From Onchidella celtica (lineage: Eukaryota; Mollusca; Gastropoda; Systellommatophora; Onchidiidae), in NCBI GenBank assembly GCA_963931925.1, contig OZ007569.1, positions 16,851,045 through 16,915,044 on the forward strand: DNA of 64,000 nt. Reading direction: 5' to 3'. The notes under the pieces were generated by a model that was given only the letters and a program-made list of their open reading frames with translations, was not told the origin of the DNA and did not search any database. Below, piece after piece: positions 4,443 through 61,897 of this stretch. The first letter of the stretch is position 1. Every line of letters starts with the position of its first letter. A program made the position numbers and the translations under genes.

Positions 4443-4445
4443 TAA

Positions 4446-4620
4446 GCCGTGTTTCCATGTTTACAGAAACGGAAACGTCAAAAACTCTTCAAGTAGTGGA
4501 ATAGAAAGAATGGTTTCATTTATACGCGAACTCTCGTTTCCGTACACACGGAAACATTATTTCTTTTTACTTCTTGATGGATTTTGCCGTTTCCGTTTCT
4601 GTACACATGGAAACGCAGCC
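4446..4620. mobile_element. 175-bp Harbinger-like MITE with TAA target duplication
   Basis: Terminal inverted repeats of about 60 bp start GCCGTGTTTCCATG on the left and GGCTGCGTTTCCATG on the right arm read in reverse. Both contain ACAGAAACGGAAACG. The element is flanked by TAA at 4443-4445 and 4621-4623. The 3-bp TAA duplication and the GGAAACGGAAACG subterminal motif link it to the larger element at 11650-13887. It carries no coding capacity, so it would have needed a transposase made elsewhere. Confidence 0.8.
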
Positions 4621-10235: not shown

Positions 10236-10701
10236 GGGGGACAAGGTGGTCTAGAGGCAAGGTGCTCGCCTCTCGTGCCAAGGGTCCCGGGTTCGAAACC
10301 CGGGCCGTGCAGGCATGTTGGAAGTTTGGGATTTTTCTCATATTTTCGTGTCCCTGATTCTATTGAGGGGTAGGATCGAGTACCTAGTCTTCTCGGATAA
10401 GGACGAAAAAATTCGGAGGGCCCGTGTGCACGTTGCGCACGTTAAAGATACCTTGGCAGTTGGAAATCGTAAAGAGCAGGCCGAACAGGCCGCTGCCCGG
10501 GCAAAATTAAATTAAATTCATCTCTACCAGTCCCTCCCCCTCCCCCCTCATCTCCCCCCCCCCCAAAAAAAAAACAACGCCTACCGGCGCTGCACTGTGG
10601 CGACGACGTGCCTGCTCCAGTTATAACTGGGCTGCAATGGCACAAAGGCAAAATTTCCCAAATGGGATTAAAGAGTTATACAAATACAAATACAAATTAT
10701 G
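10236..10701 (+). mobile_element. tRNA-derived SINE, full-length copy (SINE family 1)
   Basis: The 5' part is tRNA-like, with an A-box-like TGGTCTAGAGGCAAGG at 10247 and a B box GGTTCGAAACC at 10290-10300 inside a strong T-arm stem. A conserved body follows (CGGATAAGGACGAAAAA, CCCGTGTGCACG). The 3' end (GGGATTAAAG, then ACAAAT repeats) is probably taken from a partner LINE. ATTATG precedes the element (10226) and follows it (10696), a likely target duplication. The same body is found at 17965-18400 and, degraded, at 35372-35612. Transcription would be by RNA polymerase III. Similar SINEs with conserved central domains are known from molluscs; the exact family is not assigned. Confidence 0.85.
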
Positions 10702-11100: not shown

Positions 11101-11384
11101 TAAAGAAGCAATAAAAATCCTGAGACAGCTGTTGCAAAATCCTATTTTTATGAAATCATCCGTCTCCCAGTCTGTGAATTATTCATTACCATACGCCGGC
11201 ATTTCTCCACCATTGGAATGGTAATTACCACTGAAAAATACATCAAAGTAAATTCCTCCACCTAGGCTTGTTTTAAAGACACCACGGACAAGCAATCCTT
11301 CTTACATCATAATATTATCTATACTAACATATTTGTGGACTTAAGATTTTTCGTTGCAAAAGGCTTCTGAACCACTCAACACTC

Positions 11385-11646
11385 AGACTTCAAATTTTAT
11401 ATGGTGCATCAGAATGGATGTAAGGGTGCACAGTTTTTAATAGAAGTCTCAAATCGGTGTATTTTTTTTTTTTATTGGAAATTTATTGTTTCGCCATCAT
11501 TTAGATCTATTTCGAGTCATGGTTCGCCATTTTAAGGTTTCGTTATCACTTCCTGCGATGTGTTCACTATCAAAACACACCAACCCGTGTGCAAATCATG
11601 CTGTTGTACGGGATGCGCAGGGTGTCAACTCACAAAGGCAGAGCAG
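11385..11646 (+). repeat. Left part of interspersed repeat C, interrupted
   Basis: It matches the reverse complement of about 26700-26960 closely over 260 bp (for example ATCAGAATGGATGTAA, TAGATCTATTTCGAGTCATG). The match stops at GGCAGAGCAG (11646), where the Harbinger-like element begins, and resumes at GACTTATTTAAAA after it. Confidence 0.8.
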
Positions 11647-11891
11647 TGAAGGGGTGTTCTCATGTGTACGGAAACGGAAACGTCTACGACGTGCAGAAAC
11701 GACTAAAAAAATCCACCAAGTAGTAAAACAGAAAGGGTGTTCTCATGTGTGCGGCAACGGAAACGACTACGACGTGCGGAAACGACTAAAAAATTTTGTT
11801 CGCACTGGGTAGCGATTTTTAGCCGTTGCCGCACTGGCGCAGGCCGGAACTTACGTCATTCCCGCCTTTTTTTCCCCCGCGCTTTTTTGGT

Positions 11892-12116
11892 ATGAACAGA
11901 AACCTGGCTCTGTGGGCCAAAAAGTGTGGCGAAAACCTTCGTTTTGCAAAGATGCCAAGACCGTGGCATATATCAAACAGTGATATGGAGAAGCTCATTG
12001 GGCTTGTTAGACAAAACAAGACACTTTTTGACGTGAGGAGGCCAGACCACAAGGACTCCCATTTACACAATTAATATATTTGGGAAAGTACAGCAAAGGC
12101 GATGGGGAGAAATGAT
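11892..12116 (+). pseudogene. Broken MADF-domain gene of a Harbinger-like element
   Basis: Reading from the ATG at 11892, a segment about 20 codons in (DMEKLIGLVRQNKTLFDVRR, then PDHKDSHLHN) resembles the start of the MADF (Myb/SANT-like) domain, whose usual pattern is LI.LV...P.LYD...PDYKD..... An in-frame TAA at 12072 follows. After the stop the same frame continues YIWESTAKAMGRND, matching the MADF continuation (W..IA..M). The stop therefore falls inside the domain and the copy is probably dead, unless an intron removes it. MADF proteins act as DNA-binding partners of Harbinger transposases, which fits the surrounding inverted repeats. Nothing recognisable follows for the C-terminal half. 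Confidence 0.65.
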
Positions 12117-13106
12117 ATGACTGTTGAGTTTGTGCTTTATCCTTTGACTTCACATTTGTACTAAAGTGTGTTTTGTTTCGTAAAGCTGTAAAGAAACTGC
12201 TGCTACGTGAGCACAATGATTACCAGCTAAACTGATATCTTTATGTATGTAGTAATCATCATCAGCGGGTCACCTCACAAACGGCTGTTTTAACACCAAC
12301 CCTGTATGTATTTATATTTGGCTTAATGTAGGTCTATGCGGGATTGACTTTATCCATTTCTCACTTACCCCACATTCACTCCGTAACCATGTACACCTTT
12401 TATAATCTTGACTTCAACCCCCCCCTCCCCCCGTACGAGCAGCCATTTGAATGGTGAATGTCCATGACAAGGCATGACAAGGCCTTCATGTTCTAAAACT
12501 TGGTAGAATTTTGTATGGACTAGATCTAGATATGTACTATTTGACTGTTGTGTAAGAAACCAGATCTATTATTTAATTTGAGTTTTATAAAATCCAACCA
12601 CTTAATTTGCTTTTTTCCTCTTTATCCTTTTAAAACAAAATCATTATCATAATTAAAAACTGCACAAATCCCCTTGCTTTCCCGACATCTCCCCCGCCCC
12701 TATGTACAATTTTCATTCGCTGACACTCTCTCATCCCCTTTCCCCTTTACGGCTCTGAGTGCAAGTCTAGTCTTTGGATCTCTATTCCAGTATTCCTGAG
12801 TTGAGAATATGGAAATACGTGAATACATATATATATATACATATAAGACATATACATATCTGTATCATAACATGATTGCTTTAAGTGTGGAGTCTTTGAG
12901 AATTGTGCATTAAAAAACAAAAGAAAAGAAAAACCTCAGGGCTGATAAGTGCTAAGAGTTTCCAATACAGATTAGAAATCAGGATTATTTGCAATTACAT
13001 CACCGCCAGGCGAAATCAGTTCGTTTAAAAAATGGAAAAAATGGAATGTCTGTAATGAAACAGTTAACATCTATTGCATTGTTAACCATTGTAATTCTTG
13101 TGGCAA

Positions 13107-13180
13107 ACAACATAACATAAGATAAGATACAACTTTATCATCCTATTGTTAGGAAATTTGTTGTCACACCACCAGTAGTA
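13107..13180 (-). mobile_element. 3' tail of a TAAGA-type LINE or SINE
   Basis: On the minus strand a small hairpin (CCTAACAATAGG) is followed by TTATCTTATC repeats. It is the same arrangement as the LINE 3' end at 52720-52775, including the AAATTTGTT word. Confidence 0.6.
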
Positions 13181-13903
13181 GAACTACATTGAATATAATA
13201 TCAAAGGCACATAGGTCCCTAACGCATGCCGCACACACGCACATTGCTCACATGAAGAACATTACTTCCACACACTGTCAGAACAATGGATTTGGAAAAC
13301 TCACAATAGAAAATGTATACCAAATTTGGAAACATTACTGCTTCGAATGCTGGATGGCAAAAAAGATTTCTTACAAAGCTTTCTGTTTGTCTTTCAGTAC
13401 ATTATTCGTCTGCTTCTTTGGGATCGAACAATCTGATGGAACAGAAGGTGGGAGCAATCATTTAGAACTGATTTCAGTACTCTTCCTCAATTTCTCACAC
13501 GCTGCAACATGTCAATTTCAGCGGACAGCTGGAAGAAAGAATGGAGAAATAATCGTGGACCTACCACCGGCGCTGTCGACGGCGTTTTTGTTTTCTTTTG
13601 ATACATCTGTGATGGAGGAATGATATTAAAACCAACTCCTCCTCTCAAAGCAAGAAACTGCATTCGGCTCTGAACGAAACAGATGCCATGGTGGCAGAGA
13701 GAGAGAGAAAAAAATAGCAGACTACAAAGAACGAATATCATGACGAGAGAAACAAAAGTGATGTTTTCCTTTATTTTGGCCGTTTCCGTTTCCGTACACA
13801 TGGAAACACAAAATTTTATTTCCGCACGTCGTTTCCGCATATCATTTTCGTTTTCGTTTCCGTTTCCGTACACATGAGAACACAGCTTTAGACTTATTTA
13901 AAA

Positions 13904-14235
13904 GGCAGTGGCTACAGTTACGGCAGCCAGTGAATACAACTCACCATTTTTCTTTGTTTGGCTTTACTCCCGCTCGAGCGCCAATGGCTACCCCAGCCCC
14001 TTTTCGCCTGATTAGTCAATCTGACCACCGCCCATTGATACAAACTGACTAGACTCTCACGCCCCCCAAGTCCATCTGACCATTCCAATGCACACTTGAA
14101 GTGACAATTGGATGAACTAACAAAATTAATAAGTACAGAAAAAATAGACATTGTTTTTTTATCAAAAAGTGGCGTTCCTCCCGTTTCTTTTCTATTGGGA
14201 TATGAGCGTAATCTGCCGTAAACGTAGCCACTCCG
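13904..14235. mobile_element. 332-bp inverted-repeat element with 9-bp target duplication
   Basis: Left end 13904-13926 and right end 14213-14235 are 19/23 complementary (GTGGCTAC...TTACGGCAG). TATTTAAAA is duplicated exactly at 13895-13903 and 14236-14244. The same site occurs once in the paralogue at 26691-26698. A 9-bp duplication fits Mutator-like elements; hAT elements make 8 bp. It contains a 125-bp module (13976-14104) also found at 60350-60473. No transposase is present. Confidence 0.78.
13976..14104 (-). repeat. Shared module M, copy 1
   Basis: About 85% identical by eye to 60350-60473, including CCCAGCCCCTTTTCGCCTGA and CTGACCATTCCAATGCACAC. It lies in the middle of the 332-bp element. 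Both strands show short open frames only. Confidence 0.85.
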
Positions 14236-14244
14236 TATTTAAAA

Positions 14245-14385
14245 ACAAACAAACAAAAATAAAATAAACAAATAGGAACAGGCCAGATGAAGCAGGTCCG
14301 TAATAACCACCCAGAACTGAAACCAATATTCAAACCGATTTATCCCGGGCAGGGCCGGGGACCTCAGCTAGTAGTATTATAAAGG
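14245..14385 (+). repeat. Right part of interspersed repeat C
   Basis: It matches the reverse complement of 26562-26690: AAACAAACAAA, GATGAAGCAGGTCC, TTTATCCCGGGCAGGG, then CAGCTAGTA at the end. Confidence 0.8.
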
Positions 14386-17964: not shown

Positions 17965-18400
17965 TTATTTGTATGTGTATTTGTATACTACTTTAATCCC
18001 ATCTGGGAAATTTACCTTTGTGTCATTGCACCCAGTTGCAACTGGAGCAGGCACGTCGTCGCCACAGTGCAGCGCCGGTAGGCGGTTTTTTTTATTTGGG
18101 AGTGGGAGATAAGGGGGGGGGGGAGTGGATTAATTTTATTTGATTTTGCCCGGGCAGCGGCCTGTTCGGCCTGCCCTTTTCGATTTCCAACTGCCAAGTT
18201 ATCTTTAAACACGGGTGCTCCGAATTTTTTCGTCCTTATCCGAGAAGACTATGTACTCGATCCTACCCCCCAATAGGATCAGGGACACGAAAATTTGAGA
18301 AAAATCCCAAAACTTCCAACATGCCTGCACCGGTCGGGTTTTGAACCCGGTACCCTTGGCATGAAAGGCGAGCACCTTGCCTCTAGACCACCTAGTCCCC
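17965..18400 (-). mobile_element. tRNA-derived SINE, full-length copy 2
   Basis: Read on the minus strand it starts GGGGACTAGGTGGTCTAGAG, keeps the A-box region and a B box with one change (GGTTCAAAACC), and has the same body and CAGTTGCAACTGG...GGGATTAAAG 3' end as the copy at 10236. It lacks about 12 bp in the GTGTGCACG region and has a G-run near 18112. The 5' end abuts 18401. Confidence 0.87.
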
Positions 18401-22892: not shown

Positions 22893-23130
22893 GTTTATAC
22901 TCGTTTACAAAACTTTTTCCAGTTCTCTACAAAATAACTTTTTTTTTATTTTTTTAGAATTTTATCAATGTGTTAAAATTATATGGATTTAATTAATTCT
23001 ATGTTAAACTTAACAGCTCTGAATACGAAACATAAACAAAGAAAGTGTACCCAAACAGATTGAAAGGTGCAAAGTGGCCGTTATCGTGCCGACGCGCTGT
23101 GAAACCCAAACTTAAACTCAAACTAACTCA
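22893..23130 (+). mobile_element. LINE 3'-end-like repeat B, copy 1
   Basis: TTTATACTCGTTTACAAAAC, GTGTTAAAATTAT, GTGTACCCA.A.AGA and GTGGCCGTTATCGTGCCGAC end in AAACTCAAAC-type repeats. Copies: 31096-31262, 46597-46829, and diverged 50790-50925. Confidence 0.8.
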
Positions 23131-26079: not shown

Positions 26080-26561
26080 CAATCACCTTCCCTATACTAT
26101 CCCAAAAATGACGTTTCTATAAACTAGCCAAAGGCTTTGACCCATGGCACCGCATAGGGTATGACACCGCATTTTATGAACATGGTAGTCAAATGTCAAC
26201 TCGGGAAAGTCAGTCGGCTATGTCAGTGACTTACGTCCTCAACCACTGAGGCGTTGCTTTTTTTTATTTCAACATAAATATCTTGAAAATCCCAATATGT
26301 CCTAATGTAAACGGTGTGAAGAATTGACAAAAAAGAAAAAGTCGTATGTAGCAAACCGCGCGTAAGAAATAATATCCAAACGATACAATGAAACGCAAGA
26401 AAAAAGGGAAGACAAAAAAAATGGCAATATGTCGATGCTGTACCTTTATCAAGTCCAAAAAAAAAAAAAAAACCCACAAAAACATCAACAACAACCGAAA
26501 AACATAATGCAAAACTAAACAGATAAAACAATCGAACAATAAAAACATGAAGAATATTTAA

Positions 26562-27010
26562 TACTAGCTGGGTTCCCCGGCCCTGCCCGGGATAAATCGG
26601 TTTGAATATTGGTTTCAGTTCTGGGTGGTTATTATGGACCTGCTTCATCTTGCCTGTTCCTATTTGGTTATTTTATTTTTATTTGTTTGTTTTTAAATAA
26701 GTCTTACTGCTCTGCCTTTGTGAGTTGACACCCTGCGCATCCCGTACAATAGCATGATCTGCGCACGGGTTAGTGTGTTTGATAGTGAACACATCGCAAG
26801 AAGTGATAACGAAACCTTAAAATGGCGAACCATGACTCGAAATAGATCTAAATGGTGACGAAACAATTAATTTCCAATAAAAAAAAAAACTACACTGATT
26901 TGAGACTTCTATTAAAAACTGTGCACCATTACATCCATTCTGATGCCACATATAAAATTTGAAGTCTGAGTCCCCCCGAGAAGCAAAAGGCCTCCCATCT
27001 CCTATGTAAT
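26562..27010 (-). repeat. Interspersed repeat C, uninterrupted copy
   Basis: It starts TACTAGCTGGGTTCCCCGGC and is the reverse-orientation counterpart of 11385-11646 joined to 14245-14385. It serves as the empty-site reference for two insertions. Class unknown; the terminal words recall Penelope-like or LINE ends but this was not verified. Confidence 0.8.
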
Positions 27011-29924: not shown

Positions 29925-30504
29925 CTCTGAATACGTAACGGATCACTTGAAGTCTCTCAACAGAATTCCGCGTGCGCACAGTGCAGTAACTTTCCCCTTT
30001 GTCGCATGACCTTTTTTTTTCTCCCCACCCGATTTGTAAATCGCTGAGCTAGGACTGGATGATTACGACGTATATTAAGACGAGATCGAAAAGTTAACCG
30101 ATTAGATCTTCCTGGCGCAAAGACTACAAGATAATAATTATACCCTTTGCGGATGTTGGTAAGTCAAATAATTTAACCAAAATCTCAGTCAACATCGTAC
30201 CGTAGTGCTCGTAGAGAACTCTCCACAGACCGCCAATACCGTTATTTTGTCGCCTATCCCCATCACCATTTATCATCCTGCGACATTCCGAATGGCAGAG
30301 ATTCCGCTCTCAAGCTGATATCTGCATTTCAGTCTAGACTCAAAATGTTTTCACGCGAGCAGTCACAGAATCACTTCATTCCACCACTGAAATAAACCGC
30401 GCTGTCAAAATGTTGATATTGGCTCCAAAATTTATTCGGCAAAGTTGCTGTCTGTTGCCGTCCGTTTGATTTTTCTTTGCGCTCTTCGTTCAAAACTAGT
30501 TCAG
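29925..30504. other. Unassigned
   Basis: No gene or recognised repeat copy is seen up to the minisatellite. Confidence 0.4.
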
Positions 30505-30980
30505 TGTTTCATTTCTCGTGTGATTCCGTTGGTTTAGGCAGGTTCTGCAAGTGTTTTCCTTGTGTTTCATTTCTCGTGTGATTCCGTTGGTTTAGGCAGG
30601 TTCTGCAAGTGTTTTCCTTGTGTTTCATTTCTCGTGTGATTCCGTTGGTTTAGGCAGGTTCTGCAAGTGTTTTCCTTGTGTTTCATTTCTCGTGTGATTC
30701 CGTTGGTTTAGGCAGGTTCTGCAAGTGTTTTCCTTGTGTTTCATTTCTCGTGTGATTCCGTTGGTTTAGGCAGGTTCTGCAAGTGTTTTCCTTGTGTTTC
30801 ATTTCTCGTGTGATTCCGTTGGTTTAGGCAGGTTCTGCAAGTGTTTTCCTTGTGTTTCATTTCTCGTGTGATTCCGTTGGTTTAGGCAGGTTCTGCAAGT
30901 GTTTTCCTTGTGTTTCATTTCTCGTGTGATTCCGTTGGTTTAGGCAGGTTCTGCAAGTGTTTTCCTTGTGTTTCCTTCGT
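30505..30980 (+). repeat. 58-bp minisatellite, eight copies plus a partial
   Basis: Units start at 30505, 30563, 30621, 30679, 30737, 30795, 30853 and 30911; a partial ninth starts at 30969 and diverges after TGTTTCC. The eight units look identical by eye (TGTTTCATTTCTCGTG start, TGCAAGTGTTTTCCTTG end). Since 58 is not a multiple of three, it cannot encode a periodic peptide in one frame. Confidence 0.97.
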
Positions 30981-31095
30981 AATTGCTTCTTCTCGTTGTT
31001 GGTTTTTTTTTTCTTGTCATTTTTATTGATGTTCATCATTTTCCTTCTTCCTATTGTGTCGTACTAGGTGAGTGATTGGTGGGTGCTTGTTTTCA

Positions 31096-35199: not shown

Positions 35200-36370
35200 A
35201 CGATTAGTGAAGATCATGTTGTAGTCATCCTTTTACTTTGCTATTGTTAAAGAATACCAGTTAGACATTTCCTTTAGGTGATCTTATCCAGGTTATAATC
35301 ATTGTCTTCGGGAATGAGGATGAGCGGTGACCAAGGCGGTACTGACACTGTGTATCACCAGCCCTACTACGATTGGTCTAGCCTAGAGGCAAGGTGTTCG
35401 CCTCCCATGCTGAAGGTACCTGGCACGATCCCCGGTCGGTGCAGACATGTTGGAATTTTTTTTTTCTTTTCGGGGAGGGGGAATTCGTCTCCCTGAGCCT
35501 GTGGTACGTCTGTAGTGCTTGGTCTTTTCGGATAAGGACGAAAAACCCGGAGGGCCCATCTGCAGGTTATGCACGTTCCCAGGGCATCTGCCTTGGCAAA
35601 ATTCTAAATAAAAAAACAAAAAAACTAGGGCTCTAATTCCTACCATAGCAAGAAAAATAAAAATAAGAAAAGAGGTGTAAATGTAAAGGGCAGGAACCTC
35701 CTAAAATAAAGAGCTAAATACAGTCGTACTACCATTTTTAACTTTCATTCTGTAATCACCGCTTTACTTGCTTTTGTCGGAGAAATTACCGTTGATTATG
35801 TTATCCTCGGGAATAAGGTTGATCTGCGACCAAGGCAATAGTAACGCAATGTGTCGCCAGTCGCACCGCGATTTGTAAATTTCATTCTGTACTCACAGTT
35901 TTACTTACTGTTGTGGAAACATTTCGAAACATTTCCTGTAAGCTGTCTTATCCAGGGCACATTCAAATTTGTTCTCCTGAACAAGAAAGGTCTGTTCTTC
36001 GTCCAGTATCAACACGGTTTTTCACTTATCGTATGACTGGTGAAATTCATTCTTGTAGTCCGGGTTTTACTCGTTTCTATCGCAGTATAACAATGTAGTC
36101 ATCTCCTATACCCTTCATTAACCAGGGCATATTCTGCCCCCTTGAATAAGGCATACCTGCGCTCAATCCAGCCTTAACACAGTTTATCACCGTACGATTG
36201 GTGATGTTCATCTTGTAATCAAAGTTGGACTGGTTTTTCAAGTTCATTTCGGAATCGGCATTTTACTTGCTTTTGACGGAGTACAACCATTTAAATATTT
36301 CCTCCCTTTACGCAATCTTACCCCGGGTACATTTATCCCCGTGAATGCGGAAGCTCTTTTGCTGAATCCA
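35200..36370 (+). repeat. ~140-190-bp degenerate tandem array split by a SINE
   Basis: TTTTACTTGCTTTTG.CGG-like anchors at 35232, 35760, 35899, 36064 and 36254, together with TTATCC.GG, GAATAAGG and CG(A)TTGGTGA words in constant order, show a diverged tandem array. The 528-bp gap between the first two anchors is explained by the inserted SINE. Confidence 0.75.
35372..35640 (+). mobile_element. SINE family 1, copy 3, degraded
   Basis: CTAGAGGCAAGGTGTTCGCC (A-box region), a damaged B box, GACATGTTGGAA and CGGATAAGGACGAAAAACCC follow the order of the copy at 10236, but the 3' third is missing and A-rich DNA follows. It interrupts the tandem array after CGATTGGT. Confidence 0.8.
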
Positions 36371-42576: not shown

Positions 42577-44166
42577 TCAGACAACACTCATGTCTGGCTT
42601 ACCCTTGGTGTACATCTCCGACTTGAGAGTTATCCCGTTAATGTCTGTAGTACGGGAGTATGACGTCCCGCTGCGTCCGTTGGATCTGCTCCAGCAGAGT
42701 CTGTAACCAAAGAGTTTGCCCAACTCTTTCTTGAAGTTGTCATTTAGCCAGCCGTACAGGAAAGGGTTGATGCAGGCGGAACTCATTGCAAATACTTTGA
42801 GGATGAGGTCTATGAGAATGAAGTAAGGTCCGCTGACCACCGTATGGCTGAACTCGGACGTCAGCGCGAACAGTCCCCAAGGCAGCCAGCAGATAGTGAA
42901 TGTCAGCACCACGGCTATAAGAATGCGGTTGGTACGCTGGTTTCGTCGTGTGTCGTGTTTCTTGACAGGCCGGTTGTGTAGCACATGGCAGATGTGCTTG
43001 TAGAAGAAGGAAGTGAGACACAATGGAAATACAAACTGTAGCAGGAAAGTGGAGACGGAGTAAATCTGCTTGTGAAGATAGGACGGCCATTCTTCAGTAC
43101 AGTAAATCTGGGGAAGAGAATTGAAAAACGTTGGAGTAAGAGTGTCATTGTAGAACTCCGATAATCAGACAATTGTCAGTTGTTTTCTTTTGTCATGTGT
43201 TAATACCTGGAGTCGAGATTGAATTTACAAATATTTAGGAAAACATTTTCCTTTGTGAAACGTAATAATAAAAACAACAGTTATAGACAAGAAATAAAAT
43301 CTATAAATTTTACATACTTGCTCTGTCGGGGTCGGTGGACAGAGGAAGGGAGGGTACGCGGAGTAGAGAAATACCTTTTGAAGAGTAACCAGTTATGCAT
43401 CGGTGGGTGTCAGTTTTGTTCTTGCAAGGAATAGATCTAGGGATTTGTATCTTAGAGCGCGATTTTCTAAATACATATATTTTTGTTCATATAAGAGTTG
43501 CATAATAATGTGAAGGAGCTGAGTATGTTTTTTCTTGTTTCGTTTGGAGAGGGTAAATAGAAAAAGTTAGACTGAACTTACCTTCCGCTCCCTCATGAAA
43601 GGGTCATTAATCTCCACGTACTTGGTGAAGACCAGCAGTGGGGTGGACAGGGCAATGGTCAGCAGAATGATCAAAAACACGGTCAGGATGGCCTGTCGAT
43701 TGGTCATACGCGTCTTGAAGGGGTAGACGATCAGCATGTATCTGTCCACAGCGATCATCAGGATGGAGATGGAGCTGGAGAAGAGCGGCACGCCGAACAT
43801 GGGCATGGCCACATAGCACAGCACACGGCCGAACATCCAAGTGTTGATCAGCTGGTAGTGAAGCTGAAGGGGCAGGTTGAAGACACATAGAGCCACGTCA
43901 GCTATAGCCAAGTAGCAGATGAAGATGTTCGTGACCGTGTGGAGTTGCTTGTAGCGGATGATGACCACAACGACGAGGAGATTAGCAAAGAAGCCGAAGA
44001 TGATGACCAGGGAATAGATCACAATGACGACGATTTCTAGACGATTCTCGGCCAGCACTGTCCAGTCCTGACGCCAGAGGTCGTAGTTCTCTGTGCCGTT
44101 CAGTAAGGCCAGCATCTCCATGCTGACGTTGTCATACAGCATCTCAAGCTCCAGTGGAAGTGACAT
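42577..44166 (-). CDS. Neuropeptide Y/F-type G protein-coupled receptor, two exons (join 44166-43582, 43107-42577)
   Basis: Predicted 371-residue class A (rhodopsin-like) peptide receptor of the plasma membrane. Exon 1 encodes residues 1-195 and exon 2 residues 196-371. The donor reads AAG|GTAAGT and the acceptor TTCTCTTCCCCAG|ATT, giving a phase-0 intron of 474 bp at the start of extracellular loop 2. Visible hallmarks: N-glycosylation sequons at N13 and N23; TM1 with N62; TM2 LAIAD with D90; ECL1 W110; disulfide cysteines C117 and C198; DRY at 141-143; TM6 CWLP at 268-271; TM7 NPFLY at 309-313; helix 8 NDNFKKELGKLFGY followed by C333, a possible palmitoylation site. ECL2 IYCTEEWPS and the NPFLYGWLNDNF segment are typical of NPY/NPF receptors. 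Ligand and G protein are not readable from sequence; related receptors bind RF/RY-amide peptides, often through Gi/o. The start is the ATG at 44166 in an ACCATG context; the frame continues upstream for 20 codons but without an ATG. A non-coding 5' exon is possible. The gene looks intact. Confidence 0.93.
43108..43581 (-). other. Intron of the NPY/F-type receptor gene
   Basis: The 474-bp intron is bounded by GTAAGT on the 5' side and a pyrimidine-rich CAG acceptor on the 3' side. Splicing joins K195 to I196 without changing frame and supplies the ECL2 cysteine and TM5 that exon 1 lacks. No repeat family from elsewhere in the window was recognised in it. Confidence 0.9.
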
Positions 44167-45164
44167 GGTGACTCCAACAGGTAAGAGGTTCACACGAAAG
44201 ATCGGTGACAGATATCCCAGCAACACGTGGATTTGTTGAGAGCGAAGATCTCTACCTTTTTCCTTAATCTGATGTAGTCTGAAATACTGATTTAGCCACT
44301 GATTTGAACACTTTTGGTGAAGTATTCCAATTTGAAGAGTATAAATTGAAAGTGACGTAAAGTACTTGCACAGAAAGTTCCTTTTAGTTAGATCGGAAGT
44401 TTAATCACATAAGAGAATTCACAGCAGACACTAAACAATTCCTTCGAGAATTAGAAAATGATCATTAAATCAGTTCTTGAACAGATTTTGGAGTAGCACT
44501 GAATCCTTCATAATTATGTCCTCACATGTACAGCAAATGATTGTCATAAACACAAGGTCCTTCATATACTCCACGAATATCAGAAGCGTTGTCTTTAAGA
44601 CGTTACAGAAGCCGTAAGACGTCCTAAGCAGAGTTTTTCCTGGGAAAAGTGCATGGCTGGACTGTGTTCTGGTTGTATAAATTTGTCAACGGGTAAACGA
44701 AACAGGTCGTGAGGTTCACACCTCGGCCGGCCCACACACACAGCTGGGGTGGCAGGTACCTCGAAGGGAAGTCACAACAGATGGCATCGGGACACGCGAT
44801 GCTGATTTAGCCCCCCGAGAATAATCACACGTTATTTGGCGCAGGACCTAGGCAAAGCCGCTTGGAAGATCACCAACGAGAGGGTTTGTGTGTGATAAAA
44901 AAAAAAAAAACCTCAATCCTATTAAAACGCAGTCAATTTGGATCCTGATCCGCTGTCCAGGCAGCTCCTGTGTCGGGTCTTTCCTGGTCTCGGGGAAACC
45001 TGTAGATGCCAGAAATATGGAGGGAAAAAAATGATTACAGTGAAATCAGTAATGAGATTACCGCCATATTTCATGGACGACGGCTTGACATGACAGCGGG
45101 ACATACCATGAAGGATGAGGTCAAGAGGGTTATTGGCCTGTGCGTAAGTCTTAGCCAGTGGACA
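44167..45164. other. Region upstream of the receptor gene
   Basis: This holds the 5' flank and any 5'UTR of the receptor. No TATA box, second exon or repeat copy could be supported. A short A-run lies near 44898. Confidence 0.4.
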
Positions 45165-46596: not shown

Positions 46597-46829
46597 TTTA
46601 TACTCGTTTACAAAACTTTTACGAGCTCTACAACTTTTTTTTTTTTTTTTTAAAGAATTTTACGAATGTGTTAAAATTATCATTATGAATGTATTTAATT
46701 CTGTGCTAAACTTGACAGCTCTTAATAGGAAACATAAATAAAGAAAGTGTACCCAGATAGACCGTGAAGGGCGTAAAGTGGCCGTTATCGTGCCGACCTG
46801 CCATAAAAACCAAACTCAAATTCAAAACT
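46597..46829 (+). mobile_element. LINE 3'-end-like repeat B, copy 3
   Basis: It begins TTTATACTCGTTTACAAAAC like the copy at 22893 and ends with ATTCAAAACTCAAAC. The two share their left boundary, suggesting an element end or common truncation point. Confidence 0.82.
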
Positions 46830-48949
46830 CAAACAGTTTTCTGGAACGGTAACGATTTTTCCGTTTGGCCAAGCCTTTCTTGCTGCGCTATAGGTTTTCT
46901 GTGAATTTTCTAGAAATATTTAAGTCATTATTGTTGATGGAAAATACGGCAAAGATAAGCGAAACAAACTCTGAAACAAACTTAGAAATGGACACACGTA
47001 CAGAACTGTAATTTCAGTTTGAGTCTGAGGTCGGATCGGTCGCTGACCCGGCCTTTAACTTTAAAAATCGCGGTCTTTGTCAAACGGCTTGACTTCTGTG
47101 ATACTGAAGATGTCGCTCTGGAAGTTCCACTCATATGCCATCTAGTTGTCCTTTCAAGAGACACATCCCTCCTGGCTCCTGTTTATGAGGACTTTCTGTC
47201 CTTTCTGTGTACTCTCCTGAGGGAAATCTTCCTTTCTTTTGATCTGGTCGCGTGGCTTACATCCGGTCCTACCAACCCAGCGCTGTTGGTTAATGGGAAA
47301 TGCGGTTGTTTTTCGAAGTTCTAAATGAGTCTACGATCAAACACCGCGCTGCACGTCAACAGTAGTTGATCTCCACAGGTCAGTGCTCTGTTTTAAAGGC
47401 AACGAATGGCGTGTTTTAAAAGATAATGAAATACATATCAATTTTCACGCATTCACAGGAATTTAATGTTTATTTATTTAAAAAGAAAAGTTCGGTTCTA
47501 CAAGACCTGGATCGGATTCATCAAGATATGAAGAATATCTAATTTCTCTATTCAACCTCATCCATACATGCCTATCGGGTTTCATTCTTGGAATATATAC
47601 AAGCAAAAACGCTTAAAACGATAGCCAATTCTTCACACATCTATTGAGATATGATCTCCCTCTGTCTCTTTCATGGCGCAGAGAACCAGCGGCTGAGGAG
47701 GTCTCAACTCTTGTCATTTCTAGCAGATAAGCATTTTGAAACCTGTCAGAAAATGGATTGGGTGCGAGCGGCTGAACCTGACCTGAGGACAATGTTTTCT
47801 TTCTCATCCAGGTCGCGAACTAGATTGATTTCCCCCCCCCCCCCCTCAATATAATTTTATTCTCTTTGTCCCTTTCAGATTCATTCCCCGCGTCCTTTCA
47901 GATCCAAATAACTGATTGTTAACGAATGGTGTGGTCCAGGTATAAGGTGTCCCGCTGCTTAGGAAACTTGAATGGAATGGCCCTTAATTGTACCAGGCTC
48001 TTATCTGTGTAATCGACACCGACTGGATTAATGAGCTCCTTGTTTCCCGGAATGCGCTGTCGTAGCGTGAGGCCGTGGCCATGTCTGCTATGGAGGACCA
48101 TCAGACAAACTCTGCAGTGCCACCAGTGGGGACGCTAATGGCGCTGGCTCTGGCGCTACGCCTACTACTTTTCGATCTTCGTTCTGGCTAATACTGTTCT
48201 TTGTTTTGTTTTTTTTAACAATTTCAGAATTTTTAACTTCGAATTCATTATGCTTTTGCATTTATCTCATCATAATTATGATTACCGGTGTATCAGTTTC
48301 GTTCGTTCTCAGTATTTTTTTTTTTTGCACTACGTTCAAGATAATTATGTATTGTTCTTTTGATTTGTTGTTGTTTTTGTTTTTTGGCAAATGGCGTATG
48401 ATGAATTTAATTATGATTGAATTGGTTGAATTGTTTGAATTAATTAAAAAAAAACAAAAAAAAAACAAAACAAAGAGAACAAAAACGACGGAAGAGCAGT
48501 ACATGGCGAAATGCGGCCTCCTTTCCACTTTGCATTGTTGAGCCAAAGTTAAGTTAATAGCAGTTAGGGAGAGAGAGAGGTAACACCGGTGTAAGCGTTG
48601 AAACTGGTGACAATAAGCAAAAGCCATGAACGTGAAATATTCCTGTGTAAATCTCTTCTGTCCAAATTGTATAATTATGTCAACTTCAGCGCGCGCCATC
48701 TCAGAATGATAGACTAGCTGTGCCTGGGTTGTTGGCGAGCCGCTTTGAGTATTTCCTTCAGTTTCATCACGCGTTTATGGCATCCATCTTCATGATCTTG
48801 TGTCAATTCAGCCTGGCTCTAAATAGTCACCATCATGTTGGTGTCAATAAACACAGACTGCTAAGACTGCGACATTCCCTGAATTGTCCAGTAATTACTG
48901 CCACCCTCTGCTTATCTGTGACCACGATCTGCGCATTGGTTACCTAGAG
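46830..48949. other. Unassigned 2.1 kb
   Basis: A C-run lies at 47831-47845 and A-runs near 48448-48470. No gene or repeat copy is supported. Confidence 0.35.
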
Positions 48950-49900: not shown

Positions 49901-51410
49901 GACAGCTTGATGAGTGCCACAACACATTTTAAACAAGTGTCAAAGTCAAGGGAAGGGAAGAATGCCTACAGCATAGAAACGGAAAGTATGCACGGGGGAG
50001 AGGCGGTTCTGGGCAGCGAGCGAACCCTGTCTAATTTGGTGACAAATGACAAAAAGATTCTTTCATTTAAGTACTTTTCTTCAGCAAATTAAATTTGTTG
50101 GATTATAATAATTATAAAAATCATTTTTCTCACGAAACAGTCAATTAATCCGCGCAAAAAGGCATCCCTGTAGGTGCTTGAAGCCACGTGCATGAAAAGC
50201 GTTCAGGCATGCCGGCGGGGGGGGGGGTGGGGGGGAGGAGGGTTTGGAGAGCAAAAAATAGAACGTGCATACTTTGCAATGGGTAGCCGATAATGCGGCC
50301 CGCACCGTCGACTGTAATAATAATTATTATGATCAGCGACAGCAGTTACGCTGATGATAACTATCTGGGGCCGAGATAAGGGGGGGGGGGGGGGGAGACG
50401 GTTTTCTGAAACCTCTGAAGCCTTTTTTCTTCTTCTTCTTCTTCTTTTTTCAACTTCAAAGACAAGACGTGCATTTATGTAAGTAGATACGGTGATTAAT
50501 AACGTAGAGACAGTTTAGAAAAAGGTGCCACCAATGAAAGGCTTCGTTTTGTGTTAAAAATTCAACGTATATATTCTCCCCCCAGCCTGGCTCCTGTGGA
50601 AAAGCACTCCGGGTCTCATTGCGTGCTGTTTGTTGTGTAACATGTACGAGGGAAAAGGTTAGGCCTATAGACGGTTTTGCAGTAACAGCATGTAATATGC
50701 TTTGCACTTTTAACCCAATGTACTCAGCTGTACCAGATGATTTGGCATATTGAATTTGTGTCATGGACTGTATATTATGTCAGACATGTTGTTTGATCTT
50801 ATTTGTAAGAGTTTGAAAGCTGGAAACTAAAAAGCAAAGTAAGAGAATGAAGAAATTGTGAAAGGAGCAAAGGGGCCGTTATTCTGCCGACGCGCGGTTA
50901 AACCCAGACTCACTTAGAAACCATGTCAGAATTGAACGAAATAGTAAAGTACAATAATATTAATTTACTTTTTTCTTCTAGGTTTAGTTAATGAAAATCA
51001 TAACCAGTGCGTCTCAATCTTAAGGACTCTGCGGTATCCATGACTTGGCTCGTGTTCACAAGTAAGAATACATAGGTCCCAAGGTGTAGAACACAGACGT
51101 AGTAGTGCTGAGCATCGCTGATGCATAGCAGAGCTAGATGACGTGAAAATCTGTTTGGACTGCAGGATGAAAACGGTTGATTAACCATGAGGTGTTCAGG
51201 TGCAGACTAATTATCTCTGATACTTTGTTTGGATTTGCAGTGTTTAATTAGGTTACATCGACGAAAAACCGAGATTGCGTCTCTTTAGGATCTGTGTTAT
51301 AGCCAATACTGTCGTAAGTGCTTGCCTGTATTAATACATGTATAATTATTTTTTATATGCCTTTCATTTGGTCCGTACTCATGTTTGTCTTTCGGTTCCC
51401 ACTTCCACTC
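49901..51410. other. Unassigned, including a diverged repeat B copy
   Basis: G-runs occur at 50217-50240 and 50382-50397. At 50790-50925 GGGGCCGTTATTCTGCCGAC and AAACCCAGACTCAC resemble the repeat B 3' end. Confidence 0.45.
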
Positions 51411-52719: not shown

Positions 52720-53520
52720 ATAAGATAAGATAAGATAAGATAAATTTTATTCGTCCTTGTACAAGGAAATTTGTTTTGATCATTGAATACATAACAATAT
52801 AGTTACAGAAGCAGAAAGTATGATACATAGCGCGCACACACACATTTATACACACACACTGATAAATTAACTAAATTAACAAAATTAACAGTGCACACAA
52901 TATGCTTCCCTAACTAAAACACATTGACCTGACACGCAGGACATAATTCAACTGTGCACAGATTACGATCAAGATGACGACATTATTGTAACATCCTAGT
53001 TGATGATGGAATAAACGATTTAAAGTAGCGCTCAGTTTTAGTTTTCTTTGACAACAGCCTTAAACTTCTAACAGATCTTATATATTCCTTGTTCAGGGGA
53101 TGTTGGGGGTCATTTATAATAATATTAGCTTTTTTAATACAAGCACCAGTGTACAGCTCATCAAAATATGGCAGATCACAGATACAAATTTTGGATGCTT
53201 TTTTAATTAAATTATTGATCTTATTTTTATCTTTTTGTAAGATGTTTCCTCCCCAACAGACAACTCCATACATCAAAACGCTCTGAATAGCCATGGTGTA
53301 AAATATTTTCAGAATGCTTTTGCTAACTTTTAAAAAGCGGAGCTTTCTGAGGAAATACATGCGCTGGTTGGCTTTCTTGTATACATATGTTACATGCGCA
53401 TGCCAGTTAAGCAATGAATCAATAGTAATGCCAAGATATTTGGCCTCTGTGACAATTTCAACCTCTTCATTGTTGATAGTAAGAGGGCAAACAGAGTCTT
53501 GACAGTCACAGTTATAGACC
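52720..53520 (-). pseudogene. 5'-truncated LINE: ORF2 C-terminus plus 3'UTR and (TTATC)n tail
   Basis: On the minus strand the frame from about 53520 to the TAA at 52983 reads EAKYLGITIDSLLNWHAHVT, then YFLRKLRFLKVSKSILKIFY, MAIQSVLMYGVVCWGG and GACIKKANIIINDPQHPLNK. This is the conserved region downstream of the reverse transcriptase core in jockey/CR1-like LINEs, where YLG..ID..L.W..H and Y....WG.......L...QKKA are typical. The catalytic domain is missing. The 3'UTR contains the hairpin CCTTGTACAAGG (about 52756-52767) followed by TTATC repeats, an arrangement in which the reverse transcriptase recognises the RNA 3' end. This stretch of about 178 codons is uninterrupted, so the copy may be fairly young. 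Confidence 0.87.
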
Positions 53521-54265
<745 letters not shown>

Positions 54266-54462
54266 CCCCATTATATTTGTCGGCGATACCTACATAAATG
54301 CTAATACCACCCCGGTGAACGAATGAACTAAATCTTAAGAACATTCATAATTGAATTCCATGCGACGCGAAACATTGCACAGTGATAATTTTAAACTTTA
54401 GCTTCTTTGGGCCATGAAGTCCAAGAATTCACAGTAGTGACCAATTTGTGGTGACCTCACGA

Positions 54463-54659
54463 ACTAAATGAAACGTTTTCTCAAACCTAAATAGAACGTT
54501 TACTCAAAACTAAAGGGAACGTTTACTCAAAACTAAATGGAACGTTTAATGAAAACTAAATGGAACGTTTACTCAAAACTAAATTGGAACGTTTAGTGAA
54601 AACTAAATGGAACGTTTACTCAAAACTAAATGGAACGTTTACTCAAAACTAAATGGAAC
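54463..54659 (+). repeat. 23-bp tandem repeat, about 8.5 copies
   Basis: CTAAATGGAACGTTTACTCA with the next three A's repeats; two alternate units have TTAATG or TTAGTG in place of TTACTC. Confidence 0.95.
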
Positions 54660-58180: not shown

Positions 58181-59285
58181 CTCCCCCCAAACATGAGTTC
58201 CACGGGTGTGAAGTTGCTTCATTACACCGTGAAAAATCGAGTTGTCTAAAGCTTGAAATTCAAGCTCACCTTGAATCCATTTACCTTTGGCGTGATTTTC
58301 ACGGCATCCAGTGCAGCATATTCATTCCCCATCTTGATGCAAATTCATTAGCCCAAGTCTTTGAGGGACGAGGCACAGCATGTATCTTAATTGCCAGACG
58401 TTTTACACGCTCGTTTAATAAAAGAGGCGCTTTGAAGATGAGGGGGCGGACACAGCAAGCTTAAAGAACCGCAGCCTTCCTGTAATTTTCCATGGTTTTA
58501 CCTCTCATACGTCTCTGATCAGGTCTCAGTTTTGGGCTGTTTGAAGAAATCAATGGATGTTTCTCACACCAGGAATTAATGTGGTTTTTCCTCGTTTTTT
58601 TTTTCCGTTTTTGTTTTTCTCGGAGAAGGTTTTTTTTTTTTTCTTAGGAAGACCATTTGATGACGGCTGTGGGGAGGGTTGGAAGAGAGGGGTCGGGGAG
58701 ACGGGGGGTGGGTGGGTGGGGGGGGGGGAGGCTCTGGGAGACAGAGATCAGAAAATTATAATGTGTGTCAGATTAAGGAAAATGGGCTGTTGTTATGTTG
58801 AAAGGGCCGTTGCCTGTCCAAGAAGCAAGACACTTTTGGTTCCTTTTTCCTTGCCCTTTCCAAAAACCCTGTTTTAGGCTACGGATAGCAGATTACCGAT
58901 TCTTGCGAAATATTTTGGAGGATTCCATTGTTTCGAAACATTTCGAAGTGTTCCATTTTTTTTTCTCGGGTTGTTTAGAAAACATCCTTTATTTACTAGA
59001 TCTAGATATGCTTTACTTCATCAAATTCATAACTAGACTTGATTTTTCTGCATGTAGTATGCTACCAGGACTGGAAATGGGCATCTCAGTGTAGTTTTGT
59101 CTTTTGTCCTTGGTTTTGTGAGGGTGGGAATATATGCACAAAAAGAACATTTGGATACTCACCTGTTAGCTCTCGGCAAAACAATAAAACGTTCGAGGTA
59201 TAGAATTTCCCACCGCATGAAGACAATCGCATTGAAGAAGAAAAACGGGAATAAACGGAAGTTAGTAAAGCTTGTGAAAGAGACA
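58178..59285. other. Unassigned, with a G-run at 58699-58730
   Basis: GGGCTGTTGTTATG at 58784 resembles the left end of repeat D, but the rest of that element is absent. No gene. Confidence 0.4.
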
Positions 59286-59339
59286 TGCGACTAAATCGTA
59301 AAGAGCAGCAGGGCGTTTATTGGCTGTTATTTTTGGTAT

Positions 59340-60282
59340 CGCGTTTTGCGGTGGCTATTGACGGCAGATGATGCTGCAATCGTGGCCCACGATGAAACCA
59401 CGCTCCAGGCTCTCATCAATAGCCTTGCCAAAGCCTGTGACAAATTCATGCTAAAGATCAGTGTCTCAAAAACTGTAGTTTTGACACAAGGCTTGAGAAA
59501 CCCCAACCCAATCATGCTGAATGGCTCTCCTCTGGAGCAAGTGGGAAAATTCTGCTACCTAGGCTCAACCATCAGTGGTAGCACAGACATAACAACTGAA
59601 ATAAATGCCAGAATAGGAAAGGCGGCCACAGCTTTTGGCAAACTCTCAAAAAGGGTGTGGAACAATAGCCAGCTGACCATCAAAACAAAGGTACTCGTGT
59701 ACCAAACTTGCGTCCTAAGCACCCTGCTGTATGGCTCAGAGACATGGACCACCTACTCCAAACATGAAAGATCCCTCAACTCCTTCCACCTGCGCTGCCT
59801 ACGCAAAATTCTCAAGATCAAGTGGCAAGACAGGATCTCAAATATCGAAGTTCTGAGCCGAGCCAACATTCCATCAACTCAGGCTCTCCTAGGCAAAAAA
59901 AGACTGCGGTGGCTTGGACATCTCCACCGTATGGAAAATGATCGCATCCCCAGACGGGGAACTTGCTACTGGCAACCGACCCAGAGGTAGGCCACATCTG
60001 CGATTCAAAGACACTTGCAAGGTCACGATGAAAGCATTCAACATCGACCCCAATGAATGGGAGAACCTTGCAAATGATCGAAGCAGATGGAGACAAAAAT
60101 TGCGCAGTGGCACGCTCGCAATAGACTTCAAGGCAAAAGAAACATACCTGACAAAACGACAGAGGCGGAATGAAAACACTCGCCAAAGTGAACCCAAAAG
60201 ACTGACCTGCAATCAATGCCATCGCACTCTCGGGTCAAACATTGGTAGAATAAGCCACGAGAGAAGCTGTCAGTCAAAGTGA
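59340..60282 (+). pseudogene. LINE ORF2 C-terminal half with a frameshift
   Basis: The frame begins mid-reverse-transcriptase: LTADDAAIVAHDETTLQALI carries the catalytic ADD (Tyr/Phe before it is Thr here). Thumb and connection motifs follow: KTVVLTQG, GKFCYLGSTIS, LYGSETWTTY, LRCLRKILKIKWQDRISN, LRWLGHLHRMENDRIPR. At about 59955-59960 the frame shifts. The next frame continues GELATGNRPRGRPHLRFKDT, DPNEWENLANDRSRWRQ and a final zinc-finger-like CNQCHRTLGSNIGRISHERS C. Relatives usually read IP..LYGEL at the break, so a short deletion is likely. The fingers, endonuclease and first half of the RT are absent. The stop is at 60280-60282. It cannot make active enzyme. Confidence 0.88.
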
Positions 60283-60349
60283 AAGTGAATATTCTAGCTG
60301 CTAAGACCGTCTGTAAAGACGCTAAAGGCCATATATTGACGGTACGTCG

Positions 60350-60473
60350 ATCACCAATGGCCAACCCAGCCCCTTTTCGCCTGATTAGCCAATCTGACTA
60401 CCACCCATTGATATAAACTGACTAGATCCTCACGCCACCAGGTCCACCTGACCATTCCAATGCACACTTGAAT
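60350..60473 (-). repeat. Shared module M, copy 2
   Basis: It matches 13976-14104, in the same plus-strand orientation. Here it follows the LINE 3' flank and lies 64 bp inside the right inverted repeat. Confidence 0.85.
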
Positions 60474-60551
60474 CGACAGAGGACACCGTATTCCGCGGGG
60501 GCAGTTGTAACAGGCAATCAACGCCCGGCTGCTCCTCACGATTTAGTCGCA

Positions 60552-61897
60552 AGTGTGGAAGAGTGGATACGTAGATTGGAAGAGTTCTCAGTATTTGGGA
60601 GGGTGAAAATGTGGAAGGGACTTTTTAAGTCCTGTCGGTAAATAAAAGCTTCACGTAACTCTCCCTAAAAAACGTTCTCTCCTTTCCTCACCCCACTTCC
60701 ATCAAGAACAACATGGCCCGCCGATTGGATAAACAAGCCCACCTACAGTAACATTACGTAAGCCGCGAACTCTGTCAGGCGCCTCTATTATCGTACATCT
60801 CAGCAGCTTGTGTTGTGGTATACAAGACGGGGAAGCATGCGTTTCTGATGACGGGAACGATAAGACCTCTTACCTGCACCAGGTCGGAGCATTTTACCTT
60901 GTGTACATTACCGATTTTTGCACTCGATTGACAGCGTGGAGGCAGGAGAGGACCTTGTGCCAAGTCTCCAACTCGCCGTAATCTGGGAAAACCTAGTAAC
61001 TGTATTTGACCTTTTTTTTCCCCCTTTTTATTTCTTTCTTTCTTTTTAGAGAATTCAGAAATTACTGGATTTATGTAGAGGAAAAGATTTCAACGAAAGA
61101 ATGTTTTAGGCATTTTGCATGATCAAAAGACGAGTATGAAACCTCGAAATTGTCGTTTCAACCAAAATTTGAGCCAGTTTTCTTTTTAAGTTACTAGAGT
61201 TTTTGCCAATCAGAGTTTTAATCTACTCCAAACTGACTTCGTACGATCTACCAAACATGTCAAGAAAAGTGAGTTTTATATGGTAAACAGAAGAAGGTAT
61301 AACCTCAACATCCAAAATCGAGGCCTAACTTAATTTCCACCCAATTTTGACTTTATAGTTTGTTCTGTTTTTGTGCGTTTTTTCTTTTCTTTCAATGAGC
61401 GCTTCAAAAAAAAATACTGAAAACCAACTGACTTACTAGGTTCACCCAGAGCAAGGTACGTCAGCAAACAGGGAGTTTTAGCCATTTTACCTGTAAACGA
61501 TTTTTTTTAATGATGGGGGGGGGGGGCGGGGGGTGACGATAATGATAACCAAAAAAACGACGTCCAACTAAATGTTCACCAAATTTTGACCTACTGGGTT
61601 TTTCCAGAGTGTAGTAGACCGCTCAGGGTAATCTAACTATCAAGAAAGTCACTCAACTGTATGGGGCGCACACTTTGCCTATCACCACCGTGTCTCAGGC
61701 GGTTATGAAATGTAACCTGTACAGCCAAGCACTTCTAATGAATTCATCTCCCCCATGAGTGAATATATTTATGTCTTGATAGTAAGGATGAGGCCAATGT
61801 CCCAGTTAATCAAATGAGTTCTGTGTGGGTTTTGACTCAGACATGAACTTCATTTCAGTCATTTTGCAGACATGCCTGTGTCACGAGTGCGCAAGGC
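60552..61897. other. Mostly unassigned; possible ~200-bp degenerate tandem
   Basis: CCAA.TTTTGA(C/G) with neighbouring ACTA/TTTAACT words recurs near 61165, 61340 and 61575, and TCAAGAAAAGTGAGTT-like words near 61260 and 61640. A G-run lies at 61517-61534. Confidence 0.4.

Follow-up and report, generated by a model that had tools for sequence, protein, structure and literature searches.

Two separate transposon insertions into one copy of a repeat, here called repeat C, are supported by comparison with a second copy, which probably represents a paralogous empty site. Both copies are in our window, the 64-kb stretch of DNA analysed. The interrupted copy starts at 11.4 kb and contains two inserts, named H and M. 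The uninterrupted copy is at 26 kb. Both insertions are evident in the sequence, as are a 9-bp duplication flanking M, inverted ends at H, and a relative of H at 4.4 kb. Note that arguments from paralogous empty sites are standard practice, as illustrated in two earlier works (PMC4067079, PMC4482050). The features defining the locus are as follows.

11382..11646, plus strand: 5' part of the interrupted copy of repeat C; agrees with the 26-kb copy at 251 of 264 aligned sites, with 1 gap column
11647..11649, plus strand: TGA, the left target trinucleotide of H (TAA in the empty copy)
11650..13887, plus strand: insert H, 2238 bp, a probable PIF/Harbinger-related (PHIS) element, decayed; missing from the 26-kb copy
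13888..13890, plus strand: TTA, the right target trinucleotide of H
13891..13894, plus strand: GACT, 4 bp of C between the site of H and the target of M
13895..13903, plus strand: first copy of the target-site duplication of M, TATTTAAAA
13904..14235, plus strand: insert M, a 332-bp non-autonomous element with ends GGCAGTGGCTACAGTTACGGCAG and CGGAGTGGCTACGTTTACGGCAG
14236..14244, plus strand: second copy of the target-site duplication of M, TATTTAAAA
14245..14371, plus strand: 3' part of the interrupted copy of repeat C, ending with a palindrome and CTAG, then T
26564..26970, minus strand: uninterrupted copy of repeat C, 407 bp; the empty site for H and M

The two copies of C have opposite orientations and are about 12 kb apart. 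No third copy was found within the 64-kb window. On the left, positions 11381-11651 match the reverse complement of the 26-kb copy with 94.5% identity over 271 columns. On the right, the equivalent figure for 14236-14373 is 95.7% over 138 columns, and 130 of 136 sites are identical between 14236 and 14371. Counting only sites within repeat C, with both inserts left out, 381 of 400 aligned sites agree. The differences are 11 transitions and 8 transversions, plus one gap column, and the K2P distance is 0.049.

The initial annotation described C as broken twice and named two results that would speak against this: remnants of either insert in the 26-kb copy, or flanks that do not match it. We looked for remnants of H or M in the 26-kb copy and found none. 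Furthermore, both flanks match and every junction fits. When 11385-11646, 13891-13903 and 14245-14385 are joined (416 bases), the first 407 bases align to the 26-kb copy in one piece. The alignment has 386 identical columns out of 410. Its 4 gap columns are the TAA between GCAGAGCAG and GACTTATTTAAAA, plus one single-base indel. The 26-kb copy is unbroken, reading GCAGAGCAG-TAA-GACTTATTTAAAAACAAAC, and TATTTAAAA is present once. Note that, while this copy is indeed continuous, it had been placed at 26562-27010. The shared stretch is 26562-26971, making the earlier interval about 40 nt too long.

The inserts are 13 bp apart, as originally stated; the space is occupied by 4 bp of C and the first copy of the 9-bp duplication of M, and it too matches the uninterrupted copy. 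A single compound insert was rejected, since GACT and the target of M, both from C, separate H and M. The locus had been called a case of nested transposons. This is correct in that both elements are nested in C, but they are not nested in each other. H and M are adjacent, with neither inside the other, and either may have come first.

Both copies of C terminate in the same way: CCCGGGCAGGGCCGGG, 7-8 further bases, CTAG, and then T. The palindrome is at 14344-14359, and the distance from it to the end is 10 or 11 nt, according to where the palindrome is taken to end. Canonical Helitrons begin with TC, end with CTRR, and have a palindrome of 16-20 nt about 11 bp from the 3' end (PMC4067079). 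They insert between A and T, and no duplication is made (PMC4067079). Repeat C resembles canonical non-autonomous Helitrons in having a 3' palindrome 10-11 nt before a CTAG end, with no duplication visible. If C is taken to start with CTC, each copy is also preceded by A and followed by T. Conversely, the shared start reads A then CTC, compared to the TC of Helitrons, only two copies are seen, and the hairpin is weak compared to shuffled sequences. The z values for the hairpin are -1.2 and -0.8, with 25 and 47 of 200 shuffles folding at least as well. A scan for any hairpin with CTRRT found 16 in the window, two of which are the ends of C, while 30 first-order Markov sequences had 16.5 on average. 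Since hairpin and motif are not above chance, it is their location, at the end of the homology, that supports a Helitron. By our own arithmetic, from the density in the scan, a hairpin with CTRRT would lie this close, a few bases at most, to one or other end by chance in about 2 of 1000 cases. The CCCGGGCAGGGCCGGG pattern, allowing up to 2 mismatches, occurs twice in the window, with a mean of 0.07 in shuffles, though it was derived from the C copies and these shuffles are not an independent test.

We consider that C is probably a short non-autonomous Helitron-like element. Some other type of dispersed repeat, such as a MITE remnant, a SINE-like sequence, or a 5'-truncated retroelement, would better suit the CTC start and a hairpin and motif at chance level. 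Even so, such an origin is unlikely, given that homology stops at the palindrome and CTAG, before T, in both copies. In addition, none of the 6 inverted repeat pairs in 26540-26990 joins the two ends of C, and neither copy shows a flanking-base duplication or an A-rich tail.

Insert H has the following internal features, and one relative elsewhere in the window.

11649-11689 and 13848-13888: inverted ends of H, 41 nt, 88% complementary
11731..11793, plus strand: inner copy of the left end (subterminal repeat, family D1), 92% identical
11994..12131, plus strand: probable MADF/Myb-SANT remnant, matching positions 1-44 of 84 in the PF10545 profile, with an in-frame stop at 12072-12074
13109..13245, minus strand: segment resembling 52722-52846, with 65% identity over 139 columns (E 9.9e-7)
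13781..13810, minus strand: inner copy of the right end (subterminal repeat, family D3), 93% identical
4445..4620, plus strand: 176-bp MITE of the H family, flanked by TTA and TAA, which aligns to both ends of H and repeats the end motif internally

The end motif of H, GTGTTYYCATGTGTACRGAAACGG, is found 7 times in the window when up to 3 mismatches are allowed, and in none of 100 shuffles. Four of the matches are in H and three are in the 4445-4620 element. If the target site is TNA, the ends of H start with A or G (AGGGGTGTTCTC and AGCTGTGTTCTC). Two of our sources describe PIF/Harbinger elements. One gives TWA target sites, a second open reading frame of Myb/SANT type, and inverted repeats starting with A or G (PMC4482050). 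The other gives the second gene as MADF/Myb-SANT (PMC9710019). The related NuwaII group is described in the first source as using TNA sites preceded by C and followed by G (PMC4482050). For this context there are only two elements to consider, too few for a choice: at 4.4 kb, TTA follows a C and TAA precedes a G, while the site of H has G on both sides. The H family resembles PIF/Harbinger and NuwaII elements, both groups of the PHIS superfamily, in having inverted ends that start with AG, or with GG in the case of one end of the 4.4-kb relative. Similarly, H has TNA beside its ends and a stretch with weak similarity to MADF (Myb/SANT). It differs from them in having no DDE transposase, unequal target trinucleotides, and a decayed sequence.

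The coding signal in H depends on the segment considered. A 70-residue piece of the MADF remnant, picked by eye, gives an E value of 6.2e-4 and 20.5 bits, compared to a gathering cut-off of 22 bits. A longer piece (E 1.7e-3) and the whole frame (E 0.028, 15.2 bits) are also below this cut-off. Across all six frames of H, with E values up to 1 accepted, there are two Pfam matches: MADF and Orf78 (E 0.057), the latter looking like a chance event. No transposase of any family was detected in the same search, and a search of PDB sequences with the MADF remnant gave no matches. Because there is no transposase, H can at most be a non-autonomous derivative, and is better described as 'PHIS-like' than as a full member. 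The initial description of a 2.24-kb element with Harbinger-like ends was right about the insert. The label itself draws on the ends, on the target site and on what is a weak remnant of MADF, in an element where no transposase was found. By inference from sequence, 13109-13245 could be the 3' end of a LINE. With such a segment inside it, H seems itself to have been invaded.

The PHIS superfamily appears to fit H best. A competing possibility is a TTAA-type element, either piggyBac or Kolobok, with an eroded site. Both piggyBac and Kolobok have TTAA target sites. TTAA is indeed found at the left edge of the 4.4-kb relative, and the sequences at the four ends are TGAA, TAAA, TTAA and TTAG. The weakness of the MADF match over the whole frame (E 0.028) counts somewhat against our preferred explanation and in favour of this one. 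Nevertheless, TAA is all that separates GCAGAGCAG from GACTT in the empty copy, so that loss of a base there and two substitutions would be needed, and the coding signal of H, such as exists, favours PHIS. On balance, a TTAA-type origin is quite improbable. A TA site, as for mariner, was rejected, since the junctions do not have TA on both sides.

Returning to H as a PHIS-like element, its target copies are TGA and TTA, while the empty copy has TAA. It follows that the boundary of H can be placed no more closely than about 3 bp. The trinucleotides flanking the 4.4-kb relative, TTA and TAA, differ at the middle base too. The simplest reading is a TWA site with later changes. Alternatively, the H family may not copy the middle base of its target faithfully, leaving T-N-A at either end but with N varying (TGA and TTA against an empty TAA; TTA and TAA), though we regard this as very doubtful. 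On a star tree whose branches each carry half the divergence between the C copies, the probability that all three bases differ is about 0.001 for a given site, or 0.003 for any of three sites. Note that the pattern was noticed post hoc, that the 4.4-kb relative is old, and that we do not lean on these values.

Insert M is defined precisely. As reported initially, TATTTAAAA is found on both sides of 13904-14235. The duplication is exactly 9 bp and cannot be extended, because the next base differs on either side. The claim that comparison fixes both element boundaries holds to the base for M, but for H only within the 3 bp noted above. With the base frequencies of the window, the probability that two independent 9-mers match by chance is about 5e-6. 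This 9-mer, which is AT-rich, has 6 occurrences over both strands of the window; 3 of these are in the two C loci. The inverted ends of M, about 23 nt, are imperfect, with agreement at 19 of 25 terminal positions. Their common core, allowing up to 3 mismatches, has two matches in the window, both at the ends of M. The left terminus starts with GG and the right with CG. No Pfam family, and so no IS1595-type transposase, was matched in six frames of M at E values up to 1. This is expected for a non-autonomous element of 332 bp.

Mutator-like elements (MULEs) make 9-bp target duplications. Merlin elements are described as having target duplications of 8-9 bp, termini starting 5'-GG, and inverted ends of 24-462 bp (PMC8101967). 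M is like Merlin in its 9-bp duplication and the GG of its left end. It is unlike Merlin in the CG of its right end, in its imperfect inverted ends of about 23 nt, and in having no coding match. The 9-bp duplication is equally shared with Mutator-like elements, and fails to separate the two. We infer that M is either Merlin-like or Mutator-like. The left end also contains CAGTGGC, which we take to be a hAT motif. Even so, a hAT assignment was rejected, since the 9-bp duplication directly abuts the terminal GG and CG. Duplications made by hAT elements are listed as 5-8 bp (PMC4482050).

The only relatives of H and M in the window are the 4.4-kb MITE and a fragment at 60 kb that corresponds to the middle of M. 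The latter, at 60347-60478, is 88% identical to 13974-14106, and the ends of M do not align there. An open LINE-like frame precedes it by about 70 bp. Either M may have taken up a segment of this kind, or the fragment may derive from a relative of M. Inverted repeats of 47 nt (59283-59329 and 60508-60554, 87% alike) surround both a probable LINE remnant and the M-like segment. By eye, two stretches in the window resemble remnants of LINE reverse transcriptases; one, at 59295-59987, has a sub-threshold RVT_1 match (E 7.7e-4). Also by eye, a frame at 52986-53528, on the minus strand, resembles the terminal part of a LINE protein, and its sole Pfam match is ALKBH8_N (PF09004, E 4.6e-10).

The window is 42% G+C, with many CT microsatellites, and is eukaryotic and animal-like; our mere impression is that the source may be a mollusc. 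Pattern scans of viral contigs, with the end of H and the 3' end of C, gave no matches in either case, as expected for animal-like DNA. There were no Rfam matches in the window at gathering thresholds. A gene for a rhodopsin-type GPCR, comprising at least two pieces, is on the minus strand at 42580-44400 (PF00001, E 9e-31 and 7e-19). A probable SINE at 10237-10631, with a tRNA-Glu-like head (ARAGORN, 10241-10311), has an inverted copy at 18031-18400 and a head-like piece at 35383-35460. Another dispersed repeat, at 31091, recurs at 22960-23124, 46658-46831 and 50813-50912. About 120 bp upstream of 31091 are 8.1 copies of a 58-bp unit, with 100% identity (30504-30974). Finally, a minisatellite at 54462-54659, with 8.6 copies of a 23-bp unit, is about 200 bp after a pure TC run of 150 bp (54114-54263).

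Our preferred explanation, which we consider likely as a whole, is that a Helitron-like C was followed by insertion of a PHIS element, H, and a Merlin- or Mutator-like element, M, into the 11.4-kb copy. Specifically, C would be a short rolling-circle element, and its two copies would have been made first. Later, the 11.4-kb copy would have been struck twice by cut-and-paste DNA transposons. H, now decayed, would have entered at a TNA trinucleotide. M would have entered at TATTTAAAA, with a 9-bp staggered cut duplicating the target. Each was presumably moved by a transposase supplied in trans, from a partner outside the window. The 26.6-kb copy would have been struck by neither element, keeping the pre-insertion sequence. 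It is extremely improbable that this copy is instead not ancestral and has lost both inserts, through precise excision or gene conversion from an empty copy: excision and conversion do occur for DNA transposons, and two copies alone cannot polarise every change, but two exact losses would be required, each taking one duplicate and leaving no footprint, from a copy that has a single TATTTAAAA and just TAA in place of H.

The elements are near to known kinds, and the case is neat but ordinary genome archaeology. The two insertion junctions define M to the base, and H almost as closely, which is useful for annotating repeats in this genome. The mismatched centre of the target trinucleotide of H is one point of some interest. 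If young copies of H also show a differing middle base, the family would be a PHIS variant, with a T-N-A target and a centre that is either not duplicated or repaired.
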